Origin: a virus
DNA length: 64,000 bases
Virus record (IMG/VR): IMGVR_UViG_3300021403_000006
Span: 1-64,000 of that record
Strand: one strand, 5' to 3'
Positions 26,307 to 62,104 of the stretch are shown in pieces. Each line of letters starts with the position of its first letter. Position 1 is the first letter of the stretch. The notes below the pieces were generated by a model. That model worked only from the letters and a program-made list of their open reading frames with translations. It was not told the origin of the DNA and did not search any database. Both the position numbers and the translations under genes were made by a program.

Positions 26307-26770
26307 TCCCTCCAGGCAGCCATGACTCGTCGTGTGAACTTCGTCCGTTGGATTCGGGGCGGATTGTCGTTAAGCAGACCCTCCTCTTTGGCGATTGCGA
26401 CGATGCCCTCGATCTGGGCACGACTCCATAGACGTCTGCCTGCGTCTCCACGAGTACCTGCGAGTGGAGGTGTCTGGTACTTCGCTTTCGGCAGCCAACC
26501 TTTTCGAATCCACGCCCTTAGGGTCACGGAGTCGCGGTGCAGGGCTTTGGCCAAGCTGCCGATCGGAAACATCTCCAGGTCGGCTTCCCGACCATCGGCG
26601 AAGCGGACGTGCTTCTTCCAGGGTCGGGCGTCCCAGGACTGGTTCGCTTTGGCCTCGGCTCGCTCCACGGCCACACGCTCCTGCCGGGCCTGCCTGGACT
26701 CCCGCCGCTTGCGCCGGGAGCCGGGGTAGTACTCATCGAGATCGGCGAAGCTCGGCATCGGGAAGGCCAT
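26297..26770 (-). CDS. MerR-like DNA-binding protein
   Basis: The protein has 157 aa. A basic helical N-terminus precedes FPIGSLAKALHRDSVTLRAW, then IRKGWLPKAKYQTPP and RRLWSRAQIEGIVAIAKEEG; this is the helix-turn-helix plus wing of the MerR or phage regulator type. No effector domain follows. It overlaps both neighbours by a few bases. It is probably a transcriptional regulator of the early genes. Confidence 0.65.
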   Translation of the reverse strand: MAFPMPSFADLDEYYPGSRRKRRESRQARQERVAVERAEAKANQSWDARPWKKHVRFADGREADLEMFPIGSLAKALHRDSVTLRAWIRKGWLPKAKYQTPPLAGTRGDAGRRLWSRAQIEGIVAIAKEEGLLNDNPPRIQRTKFTRRVMAAWREWL

Positions 26771-27301: not shown

Positions 27302-27631
27302 CTAAGCCCCGTATGCGCTCACAATGAACGCCGGGATCCCTTCGCTCTCTGCACGTCTCAGCAGCTTTTCCGTGTCACGGTTCTGACTCAGTCGATCCAT
27401 GAAGGCCACCACGATGTTGGGCCGGACCCAGTCCTTTACGCGACGATGCTCCAGGTGCTTGAAGAAGGAAACTTCTTCCTCAAGCCCCCGGAGCGATCCG
27501 TCGTCCAGGATGATGATGACCTCTGTCCACTGGCGTCCCTGGGTATTCAGTCCTTCCAGGAGTGCCCGCATCAGCAAGGTGTCGTCAGTAAGACGACTCC
27601 CACAGAAGAGGTAGCGAGGTCCGTACCTCAG
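27302..27631 (-). CDS. SLOG/YspA-like nucleotide-binding protein, start unclear
   Basis: The frame contains RYLFCGSRLTDDTLLMRALL, the phosphate-binding first strand and turn of SLOG proteins (YspA/DUF2493-type), then TEVIIILDDGS, NIVVAFMDRLSQ and a last strand GIPAFIVSAYGA. These are the Rossmann-like features of the fold. The first ATG (27577) would remove the G-S-R motif, so translation probably begins earlier. CTG at 27631, overlapping the upstream TGA, is the only suitable codon. SLOG proteins bind nucleotide derivatives. The role in the phage is unknown. Confidence 0.55.
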   Translation of the reverse strand: MRYGPRYLFCGSRLTDDTLLMRALLEGLNTQGRQWTEVIIILDDGSLRGLEEEVSFFKHLEHRRVKDWVRPNIVVAFMDRLSQNRDTEKLLRRAESEGIPAFIVSAYGA

Positions 27632-28089
27632 TGCGTACCGTTCATCTCTACTCGATGCTCTTCGACGGCAGTCAAGATTTGTGACACCGCTGTGCTGATT
27701 TGCTCGTTGAGTTTGCCGTAGGATCGGTCCTCTTTCCGCACGGCGTTCTTCCTTGTGTACGCAGCTTGTTTCCCCAGATTCCGAAGCCTGGTCCTGGTGT
27801 CACGAGACTGCTTACGCAAGGGTCGTACCGACTGCATCTGCTCCTCGCCCGCTGGTAAGTACTGGAAGACGTTCTTCTGCTCCTCTGGATCGTATGAGCA
27901 GTTGGTGATGCATGCCCCTCGGTCCTGCGCCCAGTGACGAACGGCGGACATATCCGTGGTCAACGAGGTGTCCACCTCTCGCTCCAAGGCGTACGCAAGT
28001 CCGGTATACGTGTACTTCACATGGGGGTGATCCCTGAGGAAGTCATAGAGTTCCTGACGTCGACTTTCGACGTAGTCGCTATCGCTCAT
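27628..28089 (-). CDS. Winged-helix-like protein, 153 aa
   Basis: The first 80 residues (QELYDFLRDHPHVKYTYTGL, AYALEREVDTSLTTDMSAVR, then NVFQYLPAG) resemble a winged helix. The rest is a basic, helical stretch (TRTRLRNLGKQAAYTRKNAV). It overlaps the gene before it by ATGA. It is probably DNA-binding. The function is unknown. Confidence 0.5.
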   Translation of the reverse strand: MSDSDYVESRRQELYDFLRDHPHVKYTYTGLAYALEREVDTSLTTDMSAVRHWAQDRGACITNCSYDPEEQKNVFQYLPAGEEQMQSVRPLRKQSRDTRTRLRNLGKQAAYTRKNAVRKEDRSYGKLNEQISTAVSQILTAVEEHRVEMNGTH

Positions 28090-28880
28090 CGCTGCTCCTC
28101 GGCAAGTAGTTCTGACAAGGAAGCATCGGTGATGCCGCCCTCGTTCAGATAGGCCGTCAGGAAGTCGAGCGTTGCCTGTAGTCGGTTGAGCAACCCTTCG
28201 ATGGCGTCGCGGACATCTGTGGTCGGCGTCCCGCTCTTGGCCAGGACCCTCACGGCATAGTCGAACTTGTCGTTGCCGTCCTGCATGGCCTCGATGGCAT
28301 CAATGGCTGTCGCTTCGCCTGGATCAGTCGCATCACGCGCTGGTGTGTTCTTCTTTCGCTTCAAGGCGATCCGAAAGTCGTTGGCGGAAACGGGATACCG
28401 GCTCCCACGCTCACGCTTCCGGGCAATCGAGGCGGTGGCCTTCATCCAGGCGATCTCGTCAATCTCGCCGTCCTCCAGTTCAGGCAGGCCAAGGTCACCA
28501 GTTCGGGCGGCCTCGCAGAGGACGGCCAAGACTTGTCGCTTCCGCTCGTCCTTCCCGGCCTCCTGGTGAGTCCTAAAAGCCGCCTCTTCAAAGCGGTCTT
28601 CCGGTGACCACGCCACTGCAACCATCCGCAAATCCTTCAGGGACGCCGGGGTGTACGGCTCTCCCGCTGGGGTCTCGACACCTTCCTCCAAGAGGCGGTC
28701 GGCTGCCTCCCTGAGCAAAGCAGCGACGTCGCTACCTTGATTTGCCGACTCCGACTTCCTGTCTCCTCCTTTTGCTTGGGCTGGGATATCTGCCGCCAGG
28801 GCTTCAGCCAGTTTCCAGGCCCCGGTTGACTCACCTCCCATGCGTTGCTGGGCTGCCTTCACGATCCGATCGAAAGCCAT
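28086..28880 (-). CDS. Early protein with GDRKS motif, 264 aa
   Basis: The ATG at 28880 has a perfect SD (AAGGAGG). The first part has AKGGDRKSESANQGSDVAAL, a Gly/Asp/Lys motif I associate with phage early or regulatory proteins. Then come helical segments and a basic region (IARKRERGSRYPVSANDFRI). The codons for NQGSDVAALLRE carry the second copy of the palindromic repeat found beside terminase. The function is unknown; a plasmid or replication-initiation-like regulator is possible. Confidence 0.5.
   Translation of the reverse strand: MAFDRIVKAAQQRMGGESTGAWKLAEALAADIPAQAKGGDRKSESANQGSDVAALLREAADRLLEEGVETPAGEPYTPASLKDLRMVAVAWSPEDRFEEAAFRTHQEAGKDERKRQVLAVLCEAARTGDLGLPELEDGEIDEIAWMKATASIARKRERGSRYPVSANDFRIALKRKKNTPARDATDPGEATAIDAIEAMQDGNDKFDYAVRVLAKSGTPTTDVRDAIEGLLNRLQATLDFLTAYLNEGGITDASLSELLAEEQR
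28708..28742 (-). repeat. 35-bp repeat, copy related to the palindrome at 37541-37564
   Basis: The reverse complement begins AATCAAGGTAGCGACGTCGC and ends TGCTTTGCTCAGGGA. It matches 37538-37572 in 32 of 35 positions, including the 12-bp palindromic core AGCGACGTCGCT. It is coding here. The orientation is inverted relative to the other copy. Confidence 0.7.
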
Positions 28881-28970
28881 CGGAACCTCCTTCTCCCTGC
28901 GATGCTCTACAGCATTAGCACTCGCCAATCGTGGATTCGCCCTGCTGCGGAAAATAGTCATGAAAAAGTT

Positions 28971-30527
28971 TCACACCTCGTGTTCCGCCAAGAACCGGCT
29001 CAAGCTCTGGAGGTCAAGACTTAGCCGTCCCTTGCGGCTGATGCCCTTCCCATCCACCACGGCGTCGGCCACCTTCTGCTTCTGCGCCAGCAGGGCATGC
29101 TGATACTCATCGATACTGTCTGACACTTGGAGAGACAGAAGCGTCACCTGAGGGAAGACAGATGATAAACGTATGATCCGGCTCTGTCTCTGGGCGTAGG
29201 CCCCGGCGCTCCAGGGCAGGTCGTAGCTGATCAGGTAGTTGGCCATGGGTAGGTCGAGGCCAATGCCCCCGGCATCCGAACTCAAGAATAGCCTCGTCTC
29301 CGGGTCACTGGCGAACTGCTGCTTCACCTCGTCGCGCCGCTTCTCGGTGACGTCACCGGAGAAGATCACCGACTTGGCCAGCCCGTTGGTAGCGGTGGCC
29401 AGTAGGTCCAGCATGCCCTTGAAGAAGCTGAAGATGACGATTTTGTTGGCTGGGTCGGCGTTGAGGATGTCGGTGACAAGCTCGATGGTGGTGTCGAGCT
29501 TGGGTGAGCCTTTGAGGTTTTCCAGCCTGCCAGCCTCGTGTAGCTCTTGGGCGTACTGCGACCCGCCTCGTCCGGGTGTCTCACCCCGGTACTTGGCGGC
29601 GGAGATCCGCAGAAGCTCCGGGTGATCGCAGACCATGCGAAGGGCCAGGAGCTTGGCCATGATCCGGCCCCTGGCTTCACCTTGATCCTCGCCGTGGTAG
29701 AAGCTCGACAGGCTGAAGTTGCCCCAGGTGGAGATGGCGTCGGCGAGGTCGGCCTCTAGGTCGTGGACTACGTTGCGATAAAGCCGGGCGGCGGGGCCAT
29801 CAAGTTCGATCGGCACCACTTCCTCGCTGACGGCGGGAAGCTGGTCGGCGACCTGGGCACGGGTGTGCCGAATCATGTGGTCGGAGAGCAGCCGGTGCAG
29901 GGTGGGCAGGTTGCGGTAGAGCTTGACCCGGCCCCAGTGGTCCCGGACACAGAAGGCTCGATCGAAGGTGCGGAAGTCGCCCAGCACACCGGGGTCGACC
30001 CACTCCATCAGGCTGAAGGCCTCCTCGGCTCTGTTCTCGATCGGCTGGCCGGTCAGTGCCCAGCGGTATTCGGCCCGGAGCCGCTTGATCTTCTTCGACC
30101 GCTTGGGCTTGAAGTTCTTGAACCAGGTGGCCTCGTCGCAGACCACGTAGTCCCTCGGCAGCTTGCGGATCACGTCCCAGTCCGAGACGAGCGTCTCCGG
30201 GTTCATGATCAGGTACTGGGCCTCTTGGTTCATGTAGGCGCGGTAGCAGTCCTGACGCTGGCGGGCGTCACCGGAGACCACGATGACGTCGGCCTTCCCC
30301 TCGGTGAACTGGTCGATCATGCGCCGCCACTGGAGCTTAAGGCTGGCCGGGCAGATCACGAATCCGGCCCCGATCTCTTGCTGATCGATGAGGCGTTCCA
30401 CCGCAGCGATCACCACGACGGTCTTGCCCAGGCCCATCTCCATGGCCAGCAGGATTCGTCGCATGTTGATCATGCGCTCTACTGCCGCCTCCTGGAAGTC
30501 ATACAGCGTCCCGGTGAAGGCGCTCAC
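28971..30527 (-). CDS. SNF2-family DNA-dependent ATPase/helicase
   Basis: The protein has 518 aa. The Q-motif-like YDFQEAAVERM is followed by Walker A MEMGLGKT (29-36), CPASLKLQWRRM (motif Ia), DEAT (131-134, motif II), WALTGQPIENRAEE (III), and in the second lobe KIVIFSFFKGMLDLL (IV), DAGGIGLDLPMANYLISYDL (V) and YAQRQSRIIRL (VI). This is a complete SNF2-type two-lobe core without extra domains. It probably remodels DNA-protein complexes or moves branched DNA. The GTG start overlaps the primase stop. Confidence 0.9.
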   Translation of the reverse strand: MSAFTGTLYDFQEAAVERMINMRRILLAMEMGLGKTVVVIAAVERLIDQQEIGAGFVICPASLKLQWRRMIDQFTEGKADVIVVSGDARQRQDCYRAYMNQEAQYLIMNPETLVSDWDVIRKLPRDYVVCDEATWFKNFKPKRSKKIKRLRAEYRWALTGQPIENRAEEAFSLMEWVDPGVLGDFRTFDRAFCVRDHWGRVKLYRNLPTLHRLLSDHMIRHTRAQVADQLPAVSEEVVPIELDGPAARLYRNVVHDLEADLADAISTWGNFSLSSFYHGEDQGEARGRIMAKLLALRMVCDHPELLRISAAKYRGETPGRGGSQYAQELHEAGRLENLKGSPKLDTTIELVTDILNADPANKIVIFSFFKGMLDLLATATNGLAKSVIFSGDVTEKRRDEVKQQFASDPETRLFLSSDAGGIGLDLPMANYLISYDLPWSAGAYAQRQSRIIRLSSVFPQVTLLSLQVSDSIDEYQHALLAQKQKVADAVVDGKGISRKGRLSLDLQSLSRFLAEHEV

Positions 30528-35634: not shown

Positions 35635-37320
35635 GTGGTCAAGGGGCTGGATCCGCCCCCACGTAGCGTGGATTCGGTGACGTACGTGGCCGATCCGGCC
35701 CTAGAAGACGATGTAACTGCATCGGACGACGACCTCTCGGAACTATCCGAGTTCGCGCCCGCCGTCCTCGATCCTAGTGATCAACAGTTTGTGGACCGCC
35801 TTGTGGATAAGGTGTGGGAGTTCACGGTCATCTTCTCCGGGGTGGAGATGTTCCCGTACCAGGCGGCGCTCGGTCGGCGCATCATCGAGTCGGTGATATC
35901 TGGGGACGGGGCCACCATCACCGGAGAGCTTTCCCGCCAATCCGGCAAGACCGAGGTGGTCGCCAACGTCGCGGCCAGCCTGATGATCTTGCTGCCCAGA
36001 TTGGCGGAGATGTTCCCGGAGTTCGACCCGCTACAGAAGTTTGCCCGTGGGGTAATGATCGGCTGCTTCGCCCCGGTGGAACAGCAGGTGGAGACCCTTT
36101 TTGGCCGCGTGGTGGACCGGCTCACCAGCGAGCGGGCGCAGGAGATGCTGGAGGACCCCGACATCGATGACCAGGTGAAGCCGGGGTCGCGCCGGGTCCG
36201 GCTCAAGAAGTGCCAGAGCTTCTGTGCCATGCAGACCGCCAACCCCAGGGCCAAGATCGAGTCCAAGAGCTATCACGTCATCTTCGTTGACGAAAGCCAA
36301 TCCGTAGACGAGTACGTCCTCAACAAGTCCATCACGCCCATGGGTGCCTTCTACCTGGCCACCATGGTCATGACCGGCACCCCCGACGTGACCAAAGGCG
36401 TCTTCTACAAGACGATCATGTTCAACAAGCGGCAAGAGCTACGCCGCGGTTCCAAGAAAAATCATTTTCGATTCGACTGGAAGTTCTGCGCCAAATATAA
36501 CCGCAACTACGCCGCCTACATCCGGGGCGAGGCCATGCGGATCGGCGTCGACAGCGATGAGTTCCGGCTCAACTACGCCCTGGAGTGGTTGCTGGAACGG
36601 GGCATGCTCATAACCGAGACCCGGATGGACGAGCTTGGCGATCCCACCATGCCCATCCTTCCGGCCTACTGGCGCAGCCCCCTCATCGGCGGCATCGACT
36701 TCGCCCGCAAGATGGACTCCACCGTGGTCACCGTCATGTGGGTGGACTGGGACCGGCCCGATGAACTGGGCCTCTACGATCACCGGATCCTCAACTGGCT
36801 GGAGATGCACGGTGAGGAGTGGGAGGAGCAGTACTTCCGCATCGTGGACTTCCTCTCCAACTACTCCGTTGTGGCGCTAGGGGTGGACGCCCAGGGAGTT
36901 GGCGATGTTGCTGCTGACCGGCTGAAGCGCCTCCTGCCAAACATCCAGGTCGAGCCACTGTCCTCCCAGATCGGGGATCAGTCCCTCCGGTGGAAGCACC
37001 TCCAGCAGTTACTCCAGCGCGGCCTGCTGTCCTGGCCCGCCCACCCCAAGGCCCGCAAGACCAAGACCTGGAAGCGATTCCGCCAGCAGATGATCGACGT
37101 CGAAAAGAAGTACCAGGGCGCTCACCTCCTGGTGGAGGCCCCCAACGAGGCCGGGGTCCATGATGACTATGTCGACAGCCTGGCCTGCGCCGTGATCATG
37201 AGCAAGGCCCTCATGGTGCCGGAGGTCGAGATCAGCGCCAGCCCCTGGGCCTCGACGCCACGGGTCACCCGCCCAATGCGCCGCCCAAGACGCCAGACAG
37301 AGGGTGCAGGACGTCGGTGA
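35635..37320 (+). CDS. terL: Terminase large subunit
   Basis: The protein has 561 aa. The ATPase has GELSRQSGKT (97-106) as Walker A and VIFVDES (215-221) as Walker B with catalytic Glu, followed by the coupling motif VMTGTPD. The RNase H-like nuclease has D355 in GGIDFARKMDST, the GVDAQGVGD strand, and a late Asp in HDDYVDSLA. The GTG start has a poor SD and lies just after the inverted repeat. No small terminase subunit was recognised. The 3' end overlaps a minus-strand frame by 56 bp. Confidence 0.9.
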   Translation: MVKGLDPPPRSVDSVTYVADPALEDDVTASDDDLSELSEFAPAVLDPSDQQFVDRLVDKVWEFTVIFSGVEMFPYQAALGRRIIESVISGDGATITGELSRQSGKTEVVANVAASLMILLPRLAEMFPEFDPLQKFARGVMIGCFAPVEQQVETLFGRVVDRLTSERAQEMLEDPDIDDQVKPGSRRVRLKKCQSFCAMQTANPRAKIESKSYHVIFVDESQSVDEYVLNKSITPMGAFYLATMVMTGTPDVTKGVFYKTIMFNKRQELRRGSKKNHFRFDWKFCAKYNRNYAAYIRGEAMRIGVDSDEFRLNYALEWLLERGMLITETRMDELGDPTMPILPAYWRSPLIGGIDFARKMDSTVVTVMWVDWDRPDELGLYDHRILNWLEMHGEEWEEQYFRIVDFLSNYSVVALGVDAQGVGDVAADRLKRLLPNIQVEPLSSQIGDQSLRWKHLQQLLQRGLLSWPAHPKARKTKTWKRFRQQMIDVEKKYQGAHLLVEAPNEAGVHDDYVDSLACAVIMSKALMVPEVEISASPWASTPRVTRPMRRPRRQTEGAGRR

Positions 37321-37543
37321 TGGCGTTGTTCATCTTCGTCGCGGCCCCGGCGATCGCCGGTTCAGCCTCGGACTCCAACTGCGACTTGGCCGACTGAGCG
37401 CCAAGCTGGGCCGAGTACGGGGTGACGGCCTGCTGAAGATCGGCCTGGGCCGGGCCACTCGGATTGCCAGCCGTGCCCGTCGCCCTCTGCATGGACGTCT
37501 GCGCTGCCCACAGGTCGGACACAGCCTCAGGGTACCCAATCAA
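37265..37543 (-). CDS. Tape-measure-like fragment on the opposite strand
   Basis: The frame is open from 37588; the first standard start is the TTG at 37543, without an SD. The 92-aa product ends with AQLGAQSAKSQLESEAEPAI, then AGAATKMNNAITDVLH and PLSGVLGG. It aligns over about 46 residues with AQLQAQSAQSQVETQAEPAL, ending LLHAVNPLASLFGG, in the tape measure protein encoded at 56455-56600, with roughly 26 identities. The protein is more conserved than the DNA, which supports real coding. It overlaps the terminase 3' end by 56 bp. The function is unknown. Confidence 0.6.
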   Translation of the reverse strand: MIGYPEAVSDLWAAQTSMQRATGTAGNPSGPAQADLQQAVTPYSAQLGAQSAKSQLESEAEPAIAGAATKMNNAITDVLHPLSGVLGGALGG

Positions 37544-37564
37544 AGTAGCGACGTCGCTACTTTG
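37541..37564. repeat. 24-bp perfect palindrome
   Basis: CAAAGTAGCGAC is followed directly by its reverse complement. Both strands encode the peptide QSSDVATL. Within 37538-37572, 32 of 35 bases match a site inside the gene at 28086-28880. It may be a binding or recombination site. Confidence 0.8.
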
Positions 37565-37639
37565 CTCCGGGATGTTCCACGTTGAACGCTAAATGAGTTG
37601 ATCACTTATATCTGAGGTACTGGGTGGTCTCATTGGGGG

Positions 37640-37692: not shown

Positions 37693-38094
37693 ATGAGCCT
37701 TGGCCCGGAACCGCAGTACCCAGAAAGAGGTAGGTACGCCTACGACCGGACTATGGGTCCCGATCAGCCTGGCGGTCGTGGGCCTCTTCGGTTCGAAGAG
37801 GGCCTCGCCACCGACACTGATCTGCCCAGGGACTTCACACGAGGCATGACCGAGTTCATGCTCTCGGCACCGGGCCGGATCGGTCACGTCGATCCGAACA
37901 CCCAGTTCAAGATGCCGGAGGAGACCATGGCGGAGCGCTCCCATGTTGGCTCCGCGGCCTGGATCGACGCCCCCACCATGCTCGGCGAGTTCGCCCACGG
38001 CAGCTTCACCGACCAGGCTGAGGTCCGCTACGAGGAAGTCGTCCGCAATGGGCGCATCCAGAAGAGGCGGGCACCCGAAGTCGTCAGCGACTGA
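37693..38094 (+). CDS. Hypothetical head-region protein, 133 aa
   Basis: The ATG has a strong SD (AGAAGGAG). The protein is hydrophilic, with Pro/Gly-rich first 40 residues and short helices later. Its last base overlaps the next ATG (TGATGG). It sits between terminase and portal, where small head or regulatory proteins are common. No family was recognised. Confidence 0.55.
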   Translation: MSLGPEPQYPERGRYAYDRTMGPDQPGGRGPLRFEEGLATDTDLPRDFTRGMTEFMLSAPGRIGHVDPNTQFKMPEETMAERSHVGSAAWIDAPTMLGEFAHGSFTDQAEVRYEEVVRNGRIQKRRAPEVVSD

Positions 38095-45003: not shown

Positions 45004-45840
45004 TCACGGTACGTCGCCAATGGCGAGGAACCCGAAGGCCGAATCAGTCAGCACCCCGTCTACATTGCCGACTGCCACGACAGCGAGTGTCGTGGTGATC
45101 TGATCAACCGTGATCTCACCGGTCTGAACACCGGTACCGGCATTGACAGCCGGGTTGCCGAAGATCTTGGTGGCGATCATGGTCGGTGTGGACTGGAACG
45201 GGACAGTGAAGGTGATCTGGTAACGACCAGTACTCAGGTGGGTCACTGTCCATCCGGTTCCATCAAGGACACCGCCCGCCGCACTGACATTCCCCCGTAT
45301 CTCCGGTGGTGTCGGACCTGGAGGGCCTTGAGGTCCCGCTGGACCTACTGGTCCGGTTGCCCCGGTAGCTCCCGTCGCGCCAGTTGCCCCTGTCGCACCA
45401 GTCGCTCCGGCTGGTCCCCTCGCTCCTGTCGCTCCTGTCGCTCCTGTCGCTCCTGTCGCTCCTGTCGCTCCTGTCGTCCCCGCTCCTCCGGCGGGACCCC
45501 GTGCGCCACTAGCTCCCGTTGCTCCAGTCGCGCCGATGGCTCCTCTTGCTCCCACGGCCCCCACGGGTCCAATAGCTCCACTCGCACCTGTTGATCCCTG
45601 ATTACCCGGTGCGCCTGGCGTGCCGACCCCGGCTGGTCCGGCGGGACCGGCTGCTCCTCGTGGTCCAAGTGGTCCGGTCAGCCCTCGTGGACCGGCGATG
45701 CCTGGTCGTCCAGGTGGCCCAGTGGTGTGGGTGTTGCTCTTCCCAGCCATGAAGCTGGTTACTACCGCTGCTGCAACGAGGACGGCGGTCATAACAATGA
45801 GAAAGCCGGAGGACACTGCTCCCTGGTTACGCTCCCTCAT
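45004..45840 (-). CDS. Membrane-anchored collagen-like protein with C1q-like tip
   Basis: The protein has 278 aa. A hydrophobic helix at about 12-30 follows a charged start. Collagen G-X-Y repeats run from about 43 to 178, with long GAT runs, and a beta-rich C-terminal domain ([20 protein letters not shown], then [10 protein letters not shown]) is C1q-like. A trimeric stalk with a globular tip is expected. The N-terminal hydrophobic segment is unusual for a virion fibre and could be a membrane anchor or signal. It ends the lysis operon. Confidence 0.7.
45421..45476 (-). repeat. Tandem 9-bp repeat encoding Gly-Ala-Thr
   Basis: CGCTCCTGT is repeated six times without change. On the minus strand it encodes the collagen tripeptide GAT. 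Identity at the DNA level points to slippage or recent expansion. Confidence 0.85.
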
Positions 45841-55093: not shown

Positions 55094-55241
55094 CACCATC
55101 ACCCCCTTCGACCTCCTCTACCTCCAGTACCAGCGGATCTCGGAACGGTTCCCCGGTTGGGGTCTGTCCGAGATCAAAGCCATGCCCCACTTCGAACGTC
55201 GCCATTGGGTCGACGTAGTACTGAGCAACGTCGATGGCTGA
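55086..55241 (+). CDS. +1 frameshift extension of the tail chaperone
   Basis: The frame encodes FANTITPFDLLYLQYQRISE, then RFPGWGLSEIKAMPHFERRH and WVDVVLSNVDG, ending in TGA at 55239-55241. This has the look of the second tail chaperone of many phages. Upstream in this frame a TGA lies at 55023-55025, and no ATG, GTG or TTG occurs before the ITPF motif. Therefore it must be made by frameshifting. A slip of tRNA-Phe from TTT to TTC at 55085-55088 fits. The product would have about 322 aa. The TGA overlaps the tape measure ATG. Confidence 0.75.
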   Translation, partial: FANTITPFDLLYLQYQRISERFPGWGLSEIKAMPHFERRHWVDVVLSNVDG

Positions 55242-58206
55242 CGGTTACGGTGCCGGGCTGTTTGACTCCCAAGGCCCCAAGGATTTTGCCTCCGCGGTCG
55301 GGGGTATCTCGACCGAACTGAACTCGGTCAAGGGGGCCTTCACCTCCTTCGGTACTGAGGCCAAGAGCGCCCTGTCGGGCGTCTCCAGCGCCGTCGATGG
55401 CCTGATCCAAAAGCTGAGCCAAGTCACTAGCCAGCTACAGCAGGGCCTCACCGCGGCTGGCGGAGGCGGCGGTGGTATGGGTCAACCCACGTCTCCCAAG
55501 ACCAGCGGAGGCGGCGGGAGCGGACAGACCGGCTCCAACGTCAACGCCCAGGGCTGGTCACCTGACGCTGCGCCCAAACCAAACGCCGGAACCGGTGCCG
55601 GTGCGCCCCTGACCGGGATGGAGCAGAACACGGCTGGTGACGGGCCGACTCAGTTCCCCAAGCAGGAACCAGGCAGCGCCCAGCCCGGCTCTACTCCTTC
55701 CCAGACCGGTGGCTTCCTGGGGATGGGTCAGGGCAGTGCGTCCACCATGGGGCAACGGGCTATGCAGTCCATGATCCCTGCCGCCATCGGCGCAGCCACT
55801 AATGCGGTTGGGGGCCTGACGAGTACGGCGGTGCAAGGGGCCAGCATCGGTCAGATGTACGCCCCGGCCTTCGGCGTCAGTTCCCGCAGCCTCTATGTAA
55901 TGCCGAAGGGCATCCTGGCCCAGAACCCCCAGGACTACGCTCAGTCCAACTACTACGCCATGCAGAACCTGGGCATGGCCCCAGGCACCCAGAACTGGTC
56001 CTCCATCATGGGACCCGGCGGTGGTCTCAACCAGTTGATGACGCTGGATCCCGGTCTAACCCGCCAGCAAGCCGCCCAGAGCTTCGGCAACATGATGGCC
56101 CCGCAGACCTTGAACCAGCAGATGGCGTTCGGTCTCAACTTCAGCCCCGGCGGGAAGATGGAGACGCCACAGCAGCAGTACCAGCAAATGTTTCAGCGGC
56201 TCACCATCAACGTGCCTGGTGGCAAACCCACCGGGGCACAAGTCGAAGCCTGGCTACGTCCTGGTGGTCCCTGGTCATCGAACCTGGCCTCGGCGGGCTG
56301 GCAGCCAGGTAGTGCGGAGTACCAGGGCTTCGTGAACTACGCCCTCACCCAGGTGGGAATGCAGGGCCAAGGCAAGTCACTGGTCGGGTCGAATATCAAC
56401 CTCGGTACGACGTCCGGTGCCCAGCAAACCCCACTGGGTAACACCCCGGCCTACGCTCAGCTTCAAGCCCAGAGCGCACAGTCCCAGGTCGAGACCCAAG
56501 CCGAACCGGCTCTGGCCCAAGCCGCTAAAGACCTCAACGAGGCCGCGACCCAACTCCTCCACGCTGTCAACCCGTTGGCCAGTCTCTTCGGTGGCGGCGG
56601 GCCAGGAGGAATGGTCGGATCCATCGTCGGCATGGGCGGTATGTATATGGGCGGCAAGCTCCTGGGCAAAGTGGGCGGCAAGGTTCTCGGCTCAGTTGGC
56701 GGCAAGGTTCTCGGATCTTTTGGCGGCAAGCTCGGCAAGCTCGGTGATCTCCTGGGTGGCGGCACTGCCGCCGAGGCTGAAGGAACGGTCGCCAAGACGG
56801 CAGGGAAGGGGATGTTCGGCAACCTCCTCAAGGGAGGTCTTGGCAATCTGTTTAAAGGCGGGGCGGGTGCTGCGGGAGCAGAGGCAGGAGAAGTTGGTGG
56901 TATAGAAGCAGCCGGTGCAGGCCTCGACGCCACAGGTGTAGGTCTGCCGGTTGGATTGGCGTTGGGGGCTGTCGGTTTAGGTCTCGGCTTCCACAAGCAG
57001 ATCGGCAGCTTCATTGGTGGACTCTTTGGTCACCACAAGAAAAAGTCCACCGCCGCACCAGATGGTACTGAAACCGGTGCGAGCGATGACGTGTCCTCCC
57101 TCCTGGCTTCTAAGCCTGCCCCCAACAGTCTCCTGGCCTGTCTGACTTCACAGGTCAAGGCCAACGACAACACCGTCATCAGCGTCCTGATGAACAAGTC
57201 ATCGGCTATGCCCAGAATCGGTGGCGGAGGGGCGATGGGTGGCGGTCGTATACAAACCATGAGCGCCTTTAGCCCCCTTGGCACAGGCGGCGGAGGCGGA
57301 GGCGGCGGAGGCGGAGGGGGAGGCGGAGGCGGAGGCGGCGCATCTGGGAGTGCCACGGGGTCTGCTCCTTCGCAGCCTTACACCTGGACCTACAAGAGCG
57401 GCGGCATCGGCCCCCAAGACATGTCTGGGATGTTCATGACGACATCCTCCAGTGGCGGTGGCGGCGGTGGTGGCGGTGGTGGTGGCGGTGGTAATGGCGG
57501 CAGTTCTGGCCCAACAACCCTCAGTGGCAGCGGCAACGTCCAACAGGCGTACAACTATTTCCTTAGTAAGGGCCTCAAGGACTACATGGCGGCTGGCATC
57601 GTAGGCAACTTGGCCCAAGAGTCCGGGGTGAACCCGGCGTCCACTTCGCCAGGTGCAATGGGCATTGCTCAGTGGACACCACCGACTGCGCTGCAAGCCT
57701 GGGCCAAACAGCAAAACCGTAGTGCCACCGACATGTCAACTCAGTTGGACTTTCTGTGGATGCAGATGAACTCGACCGAGAAGGGGGCGCTCGTGGCCTT
57801 GCAGGCCTCGACCGACGCCGCCTCTGCCGCCCAGGCATTTGAGCAGCAGTACGAACGGGCCGGAATACCGATGATGCAGAATCGGGTCAAGTACGCCCAG
57901 ACCGTTCTGTCAACCAAGGGAGCCAGCTACGCCCGTGGCTCCCAGTTGATCGACCGCACCCAGCTTGCCCTCCTGCATGCCGGTGAAGCGGTGGTGCCTG
58001 CCGCCGACAACTACTCCGCCTCCCCTTACAACAAGAACGGAGCAGGCAACGGCGGTGGAAACACCGTTCACCTCAACTTCAAAGCGGGAGCCGTTGTGCT
58101 GCAAGTGCCGCCCTCTTCCTCCCAGCAGGACATGGAGAACCTTGCCAACCAGTTCGTCGCGGCCATCTCCAAGCCCGCTGTCCTCGCCGGAGTCAGGTCC
58201 ACGTAA
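55234..58206 (+). CDS. Tape measure protein with tail lysozyme domain
   Basis: The protein has 990 aa, Ala/Gly/Gln-rich. Helical segments with AQSAQSQVETQAEPALAQAA (about 410-430), a Gly-rich hydrophobic part (about 450-600, for example GMYMGGKLLGKVGGKVLG) and two long Gly runs precede a lysozyme-like domain (about 768-890): NYFLSKGLKDYMAAGIVGNL, then AQESGVNPAS (likely catalytic Glu) and GAMGIAQWTP. It sets tail length and probably opens the wall at injection. About 46 residues are repeated in the minus-strand gene beside terminase. Confidence 0.88.
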   Translation: MADGYGAGLFDSQGPKDFASAVGGISTELNSVKGAFTSFGTEAKSALSGVSSAVDGLIQKLSQVTSQLQQGLTAAGGGGGGMGQPTSPKTSGGGGSGQTGSNVNAQGWSPDAAPKPNAGTGAGAPLTGMEQNTAGDGPTQFPKQEPGSAQPGSTPSQTGGFLGMGQGSASTMGQRAMQSMIPAAIGAATNAVGGLTSTAVQGASIGQMYAPAFGVSSRSLYVMPKGILAQNPQDYAQSNYYAMQNLGMAPGTQNWSSIMGPGGGLNQLMTLDPGLTRQQAAQSFGNMMAPQTLNQQMAFGLNFSPGGKMETPQQQYQQMFQRLTINVPGGKPTGAQVEAWLRPGGPWSSNLASAGWQPGSAEYQGFVNYALTQVGMQGQGKSLVGSNINLGTTSGAQQTPLGNTPAYAQLQAQSAQSQVETQAEPALAQAAKDLNEAATQLLHAVNPLASLFGGGGPGGMVGSIVGMGGMYMGGKLLGKVGGKVLGSVGGKVLGSFGGKLGKLGDLLGGGTAAEAEGTVAKTAGKGMFGNLLKGGLGNLFKGGAGAAGAEAGEVGGIEAAGAGLDATGVGLPVGLALGAVGLGLGFHKQIGSFIGGLFGHHKKKSTAAPDGTETGASDDVSSLLASKPAPNSLLACLTSQVKANDNTVISVLMNKSSAMPRIGGGGAMGGGRIQTMSAFSPLGTGGGGGGGGGGGGGGGGGGASGSATGSAPSQPYTWTYKSGGIGPQDMSGMFMTTSSSGGGGGGGGGGGGGNGGSSGPTTLSGSGNVQQAYNYFLSKGLKDYMAAGIVGNLAQESGVNPASTSPGAMGIAQWTPPTALQAWAKQQNRSATDMSTQLDFLWMQMNSTEKGALVALQASTDAASAAQAFEQQYERAGIPMMQNRVKYAQTVLSTKGASYARGSQLIDRTQLALLHAGEAVVPAADNYSASPYNKNGAGNGGGNTVHLNFKAGAVVLQVPPSSSQQDMENLANQFVAAISKPAVLAGVRST
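57287..57345 (+). repeat. Gly-codon tract, poly-glycine linker 1
   Basis: Mostly GGC, GGA and GGG triplets encode an unbroken run of about 19 Gly within the tape measure gene. A second run of GGC/GGT codons lies at about 57452-57495. They separate the membrane-like part from the lysozyme domain and are probably flexible linkers. Confidence 0.75.
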
Positions 58207-60981: not shown

Positions 60982-62104
60982 CCCCGCCGCGGCCCCGACC
61001 CCGCCGACGCCCCCGCACTACGGGGGTGTGTACGCGGCCAAGGTTTATTCCATCACGGATCCCAATCATCTCAGGCGGATCCAGATGTATATCCCTCAGG
61101 TCTTCGGTGACAGCCCGCTCAAGATCTGGGCACCGCCGATCGCCCAAAGCACCAATACCCCAGTAGTCGGCAGCGTCGTCTGGTGCATCTTCCAGGGTGG
61201 GGACCCGGCCTACCCCACCTACATGCCTCAACAGGTAGGGGGAGGGTCCGCAGGCCCGACCGGACCCTCTGGCCCAACCGGACCCTCCGGTCCACAAGGC
61301 ATCACCGGAGCAGGAGGAACCACAGGCGCGACCGGAGCCACAGGAGCAACGGGTCCCACCGGCCCGTCAGGCGGGCCTCCTGGCCCCACAGGGCCTACCG
61401 GACCCACCGGGCCGATCTCGACAGTTCCTGGTCCCACCGGGGCGACTGGAACTGTTGGGTCGACCGGAGCCACTGGGCCAACGGGTGCCACCGGTCCTCT
61501 CGGAGGACCCACTGGCCCAACCGGCCCACCAGGTCCACCCGGCCTCACCTACATCCAGACCATCACCGCCCCCACCGCGGCAGGATCGCCCTACACGGTC
61601 ACCCACAATCTGAACACCCACTACCCCCTGATAGAGCTATGGGACGCCGTCAATGGCCACATGCTGGTGACCAACGCGTCCGTGGTGGACGCCAACAACA
61701 TCACCCTCAGCTTCCTCCAGAACCCTCCCCACGACGTCACCGTGGTGGTCACAGGCGGCGCTACGGGCATGACCGGTCCCGCCGGGCCGACCGGCCCTAC
61801 CGGTGCCACCGGCCCGTCTGGTGGCCCTCCAGGTCCAACCGGAGCCACTGGAGCCACTGGATCAATCGGTCCCACTGGTCCGCAAGGCCCAGCCGGTGAC
61901 GCAGGCACGACATTCTTCGTATGGAACCAGGCCTCCGCCGCCACCACCTGGATGATCAGCCACACCCTGGGCTTCAACCCGAACGTATCGGTAGTCGACT
62001 CCACCGGCATGCAGATCTTCCCCGGCGATCTCAAGTACCTCGACGTTGCCACCATCCAACTTGACTTCTCGGCTGCCGTAGGTGGCCTGGCGTACCTGAG
62101 CTAG
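60965..62104 (+). CDS. Central spike/OB-fold protein with collagen-like and fibre modules
   Basis: The protein has 379 aa. The first 90 residues ([29 protein letters not shown]-type strand, [23 protein letters not shown]) form an OB-fold of the gp5/gpV type. Then come collagen repeats (about 98-185), a 70-residue beta module ([20 protein letters not shown], then DANNITLSF), a second collagen block and a last beta module ending GLAYLS. The spike tip domain is replaced by fibre-like modules. Confidence 0.72.

Follow-up and report, generated by a model that had tools for sequence, protein, structure and literature searches.

The ParB-like protein ParT of the Streptomyces plasmid SCP2 binds an 18-bp inverted repeat that lies within its own coding sequence (PMC12260392). 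In the deposited sequence (AL645771) the SCP2 parT gene contains TGTCTCCAATTGGAGACA, which codes for VSPIGDI and adjoins the helix-turn-helix (HTH); equating it with the published ParT site rests on its length, symmetry and place. Phage N15 has a ParB protein with inverted-repeat sop centromere sites spread over the genome, as part of a full ParABS system. Palindromic DNA inserted in protein-coding genes is represented by the Rickettsia palindromic elements, which are about 100-150 bp long and related to one another in sequence. Among phages, the 17-bp palindromic repeats of cluster O mycobacteriophages are dyad-symmetric sequences dispersed in the genome, both within and between genes (PMC4351075), and the start-associated sequences of cluster K include extended inverted repeats that closely precede gene starts (PMC3203893). 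The locus described here shares these features, but with 2-3 copies per genome as against more than 30 near-identical ones in cluster O, and with 1-2 lineage-specific copies as against the many copies, conserved between genomes, of cluster K.

The stretch of viral DNA that was analysed (the window, 64,000 nucleotides) is part of a 65,138-base virus record. At positions 37541-37564 it carries a perfect 24-bp palindrome, CAAAGTAGCGACGTCGCTACTTTG, that is, CAAAGTAGCGAC followed by its exact reverse complement. No other perfect palindrome in the window is as long, the runner-up being 16 bp, and about 0.004 palindromes of 24 bp would be expected in 64 kb. Positions 28716-28739 match the 24-mer with 2 mismatches (0 such matches expected in shuffles). 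When this second copy is extended to 28708-28742 (NQGSDVAALLRE), its reverse complement agrees with 37538-37572 at 32 of 35 positions (91% over 35 nt, E about 4e-5), making it the top-ranking inverted-repeat pair in the window. The original prediction was therefore accurate as to both the palindrome and its 35-bp relative. The right flank, CTCnGGGA, lies outside the palindrome and is common to both copies. In the viral collection, matches beyond the 16-bp core are confined to one contig, identical to the window over 5,407 nt and possibly not an independent assembly; the 24-mer is thus unique to this phage. A core common to other phages was considered and rejected, the four exact matches of the 16-mer being unrelated and having the look of chance.

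The palindrome lies beside the terminase large subunit gene (35635..37320, plus strand; Terminase_6C). This gene was used to find relatives, of which there are 46 in the viral collection; gene order agrees with that of the window in most of those for which flanking sequence exists. Between terminase and a plus-strand gene at 37693 is a small minus-strand gene for 85 aa (37265..37522), kept in 16 relatives as judged by protein matches and a candidate target of regulation. Its start is taken to be the GTG at 37522, on the basis of ATG starts in three relatives (L011, L012 and L027). Since the small gene starts at 37522, the palindrome is located 18 nt upstream of that start, within the spacer between the small gene and the divergent gene at 37693, and not at a junction of converging reading frames as had been proposed; the plus-strand frame 37304-37585 found no support. 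A promoter scan detected no promoter-like sequence near the palindrome. Part of the small gene (37301-37424) shows an inverted likeness to 56442-56565, within a 990-aa gene (55234-58206), of 64.5% over 124 nt (E 2e-8). Elsewhere in the window, collagen-like GXX repeat proteins are encoded at 45004-45840 and 61231-61948, on opposite strands.

When the window is aligned on both flanks with the relative L013, it has exactly 36 extra bases, 37535-37570. The insertion is clean and its centre is the dyad centre of the palindrome; no clear target-site duplication accompanies it. Absence of the 36 bp from L013 therefore indicates that the palindrome moved to 37541. Directly after the insert, TGTTCCACGTTGAACG (37573-37588) is nearly palindromic and similar to the parS consensus of bacteria; only L013 shares it. 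In another relative, a perfect 22-bp palindrome, GCAGCCGGCCTAGGCCGGCTGC, is found at the 3' end of terminase (L024:5149-5170).

The proximity to the terminase large subunit gene could suggest an integrase attachment site or a packaging (cos/pac) site. We give this almost no credence, as none of the examined relatives whose terminase is 80-88% identical has the palindrome and no integrase occurs among the neighbouring genes examined. A serine-integrase attP was ruled out, the neighbours being terminase, portal and replication genes. A degenerate 22-mer of the core, AARGYAGCGACGTCGCTRCYTT, has no match among 84,980 bacterial and archaeal genomes, which speaks against an attachment site shared with the host. 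A conserved terminase-linked site is likewise ruled out: at up to 3 mismatches the 24-mer is missing in all 31 relatives searched, and because it is absent there from relatives, it has no conserved role at the terminase site.

The other copy (28708..28742, minus strand; 24-bp core 28716-28739) does lie inside a gene, as originally stated. This gene, 28086..28961 on the minus strand, encodes QGSDVAAL at the site, directly after KGGDRKSESAN, and two pairs of the core are mismatched there, each being G.U in the sense RNA. Together with a second gene that overlaps it (27628..28089, minus; no match in Pfam, PHROGs or PADLOC), it occupies a cargo slot between an SNF2-type helicase gene (28971..30527, minus), which is its upstream boundary, and the gene at 26770. 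The slot is variable, being empty or filled with other genes in relatives. The 28086-28961 product, which counts 266 aa from an inner ATG and which we propose to be a DNA-binding protein, has no match in Pfam, PHROGs, NCBIfam or PADLOC and no direct relatives in viral contigs, genome contigs, phages or plasmids. Its single-sequence fold is helical and poor (pLDDT 51.6), and a structural search with this model gave no convincing match. Homology to the slot gene of L055, suggestive by eye, was not significant and was set aside.

The slot genes of three related genomes, G007, G004 and G002, were reached by synteny rather than through a palindrome search. They contain palindromes of 32 bp (AACCGCTATCGGAAGATCTTCCGATAGCGGTT, locus L061), 28 bp (TCGCTTCAGCCGGATCCGGCTGAAGCGA, L058) and 22 bp (GGTGAGTCCTATAGGACTCACC, L056), respectively, each in a linker near the HTH region and each of a different sequence; the slot genes of G007 and G004 are ParB-type. 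None of 60 synonymous-codon shuffles reproduces the palindrome in L056, L058, L061 or a further locus, L098, and the same procedure is not significant for eight control genes of the window. Mere codons of a common gene family thus fail to explain the group, while for the window gene copy taken alone 43 of 60 shuffles reach its palindromicity, which is not significant. The longest loop-free palindromes in 759 kb lie mostly within slot-type HTH-linker genes, and several members of the palindrome family have no loop. No second copy of the L058, L056 or L098 palindromes is present in their contigs, which are fragments, and database searches with L098- and L102-type proteins returned no relative or one weak match. 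In another slot region, a 26-nt near-palindrome, CTATTCAGGCGGTTCCGCCTGAATAG, falls within an open frame of 323 codons that runs on the opposite strand (L065:4057-4082).

A binding site is favoured because ParB-type and other HTH slot genes carry different palindromes at the same place, sometimes with a second copy. Of the conserved site for a dimeric protein that had been envisaged, the palindromic form and its place do recur in the relatives' HTH slot genes, whereas the sequence is not conserved (0/31 relatives). The recombination junction offered as the alternative is borne out inasmuch as the 37541 copy is an insertion absent from L013, but the recurrent slot-gene palindromes favour a protein-binding site. 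Overall, the observation behind the original prediction is partly confirmed and its interpretation partly supported.

The kinship of several slot proteins with ParB was assessed with a profile of six ParB-type proteins (the G007 and G004 slot proteins, phi16 gp42 and three further phage proteins), which matches Spo0J/ParB/Noc structures with E 7e-11. A single-sequence fold of the 301-aa G007 ParB was poor (pLDDT 43.9). ParA (PF13614) was not found in the window's record (G000), G007, G004 or G002, while all control genomes were positive; N15, in contrast, has the full ParABS set. As in SCP2, a palindromic site is present near the HTH inside ParB/ParT-type genes, with two mismatched pairs in the window's own copy. 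In both cases the inverted-repeat site lies within a ParB-type gene, beside the HTH, and proteins lacking a recognisable CTPase domain exist (PMC12260392). SCP2 differs in having ParA and a single 18-bp site, as against palindromes of 22-32 bp and ectopic copies near gene starts in the phages. On the best-supported reading the site would act in the manner of ParT-parS. We do not assign it to a partition system, since ParA was not found, the window's protein has no ParB match and binding is inferred.

Additional copies are also present in G007, which has three against two in the window, the two elements being unrelated in sequence. Besides the slot-gene palindrome, the core of G007 recurs at 36914, with 5 mismatches and 11/12 paired within itself, and at 70261, with 3 mismatches. 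A start codon follows the 36914 copy at a distance of 12 nt; compared with G008, this copy lies within 41 inserted bp, which consist of 36 bases plus a repeated ATGAC. This flanking repeat resembles a target duplication, but could be chance because a tandem of ATGACC and ATGACC is already present in G008 at that place. The third copy (L119:10762-10785, that is, G007:70261-70284) lies inside a 493-codon open frame and encodes DMGRSSDN, in the same frame as AIGRSSDS of the slot gene. Both noncoding ectopic copies, in the window and in G007, precede a start codon by 12-18 nt, and each is missing in a relative. Two phages with unrelated palindromes have thus each gained a noncoding copy by insertion, close upstream of a gene.

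These insertions, demonstrated against empty sites (window versus L013, G007 versus G008), recall the Rickettsia palindromic elements. They could be attributed to a tiny mobile palindromic element of about 36 bp, moved by some enzyme into protein linkers and intergenic sites and serving as no binding site for the slot protein. In favour of such an element are the cleanness of both insertions (36 bp, and 36+5 bp with its ATGAC repeat), the centring of the window insert on the dyad and the three copies in G007. It is nonetheless unlikely in our estimation: there are just 1-2 ectopic copies per genome, the window and G007 elements have no common sequence, and inside genes the palindromes are specific to linkers adjacent to the HTH. 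In further contrast to the Rickettsia elements, each phage has its own sequence, of about 36 bp, and related copies across many loci or genomes are lacking.

The CTCnGGGA flank, shared beyond the palindrome, points to descent of the spacer copy from gene 28086. It lends something to the earlier suggestion that one copy is a scrap of a related gene, although a copied piece centred exactly on the dyad does not fit that suggestion. Hairpin-driven template switching could have copied a quasi-palindromic piece of gene 28086 once into the spacer and perfected it to an exact palindrome devoid of function. Indeed, both differences between the copies inside the palindrome convert mismatched G.T pairs to matched pairs, as quasi-palindrome correction does. 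We regard this course of events as distinctly improbable, since it leaves unexplained the relatives' differing slot-gene palindromes, the covarying arms (see below) and the second such insertion, in G007.

The possibility that the element acts as an RNA hairpin affecting the translation or stability of a transcript has only a slim chance of being correct. Folding of the sense RNA predicts a 10-bp hairpin for each copy, maintained in the gene copy by G.U pairs, and the spacer copy falls within the presumed leader of the small gene. However, the z-scores of these folds are weak (spacer copy, -1.3 to -1.8; sense strand of the gene copy, -1.6), several family members are loop-free palindromes, and the ectopic copies retain sequence and not merely pairing.

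An independent sample was obtained by scanning for DNA that codes for KGGDRKS, the motif preceding the site in the window's gene and one on which no literature was found. Of the 30 viral loci that it returned, roughly half are real proteins, which fall into several architectures. Inverted repeats with the arms ATCAAA/TTTGAT lie downstream of the motif at seven distinct KGGDRKS loci, in unrelated phages and in more than one reading frame. When six such sites are aligned with the window gene without gaps, 80.6% of cells are paired, versus 30-43% when the alignment is slid. The same alignment, which is small and whose structure was picked by eye, contains 14 double changes, and its covariation score was reached in 0 of 500 shuffles. 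At L083 and L095 the inverted repeat follows KGGDRKS directly; L095 encodes a Dam-type methyltransferase (Pfam PF05869), and L083 looks by eye like a member of the same family. Because the L095 protein is a Dam-type methyltransferase, the KGGDRKS linker module occurs outside ParB proteins as well.

To our mind the chances are about even that the 37541 palindrome is a second, inserted copy of a parS-like or operator-like site carried inside the gene of its putative binder, 28086-28961. The original copy would be the one embedded in that gene, in a linker beside the HTH region, as in SCP2 parT, and the 36-bp insertion would have delivered the ectopic copy to 37541, directly upstream of the small conserved gene beside terminase. 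We infer that the slot protein binds the palindrome. A bound dimer at 37541 would then block or modulate the small gene, or mark the DNA.

More tentatively, and with odds somewhat against it, many phage ParB-type or HTH proteins may carry their own cognate palindrome within the gene, in an HTH-adjacent linker. Gene and site would then form one travelling module, with the palindrome evolving per lineage and copies of about 36 bp being seeded near gene starts. If so, the single case of SCP2 ParT would be generalised to phages, as DNA-binding genes that carry their own binding site, and horizontal transfer of such a gene would therefore always bring a working site with it. The pairs of slot gene and palindrome would offer material at hand for work on the evolution of ParB-type specificity, and from the short insertions one could read how new sites are seeded.
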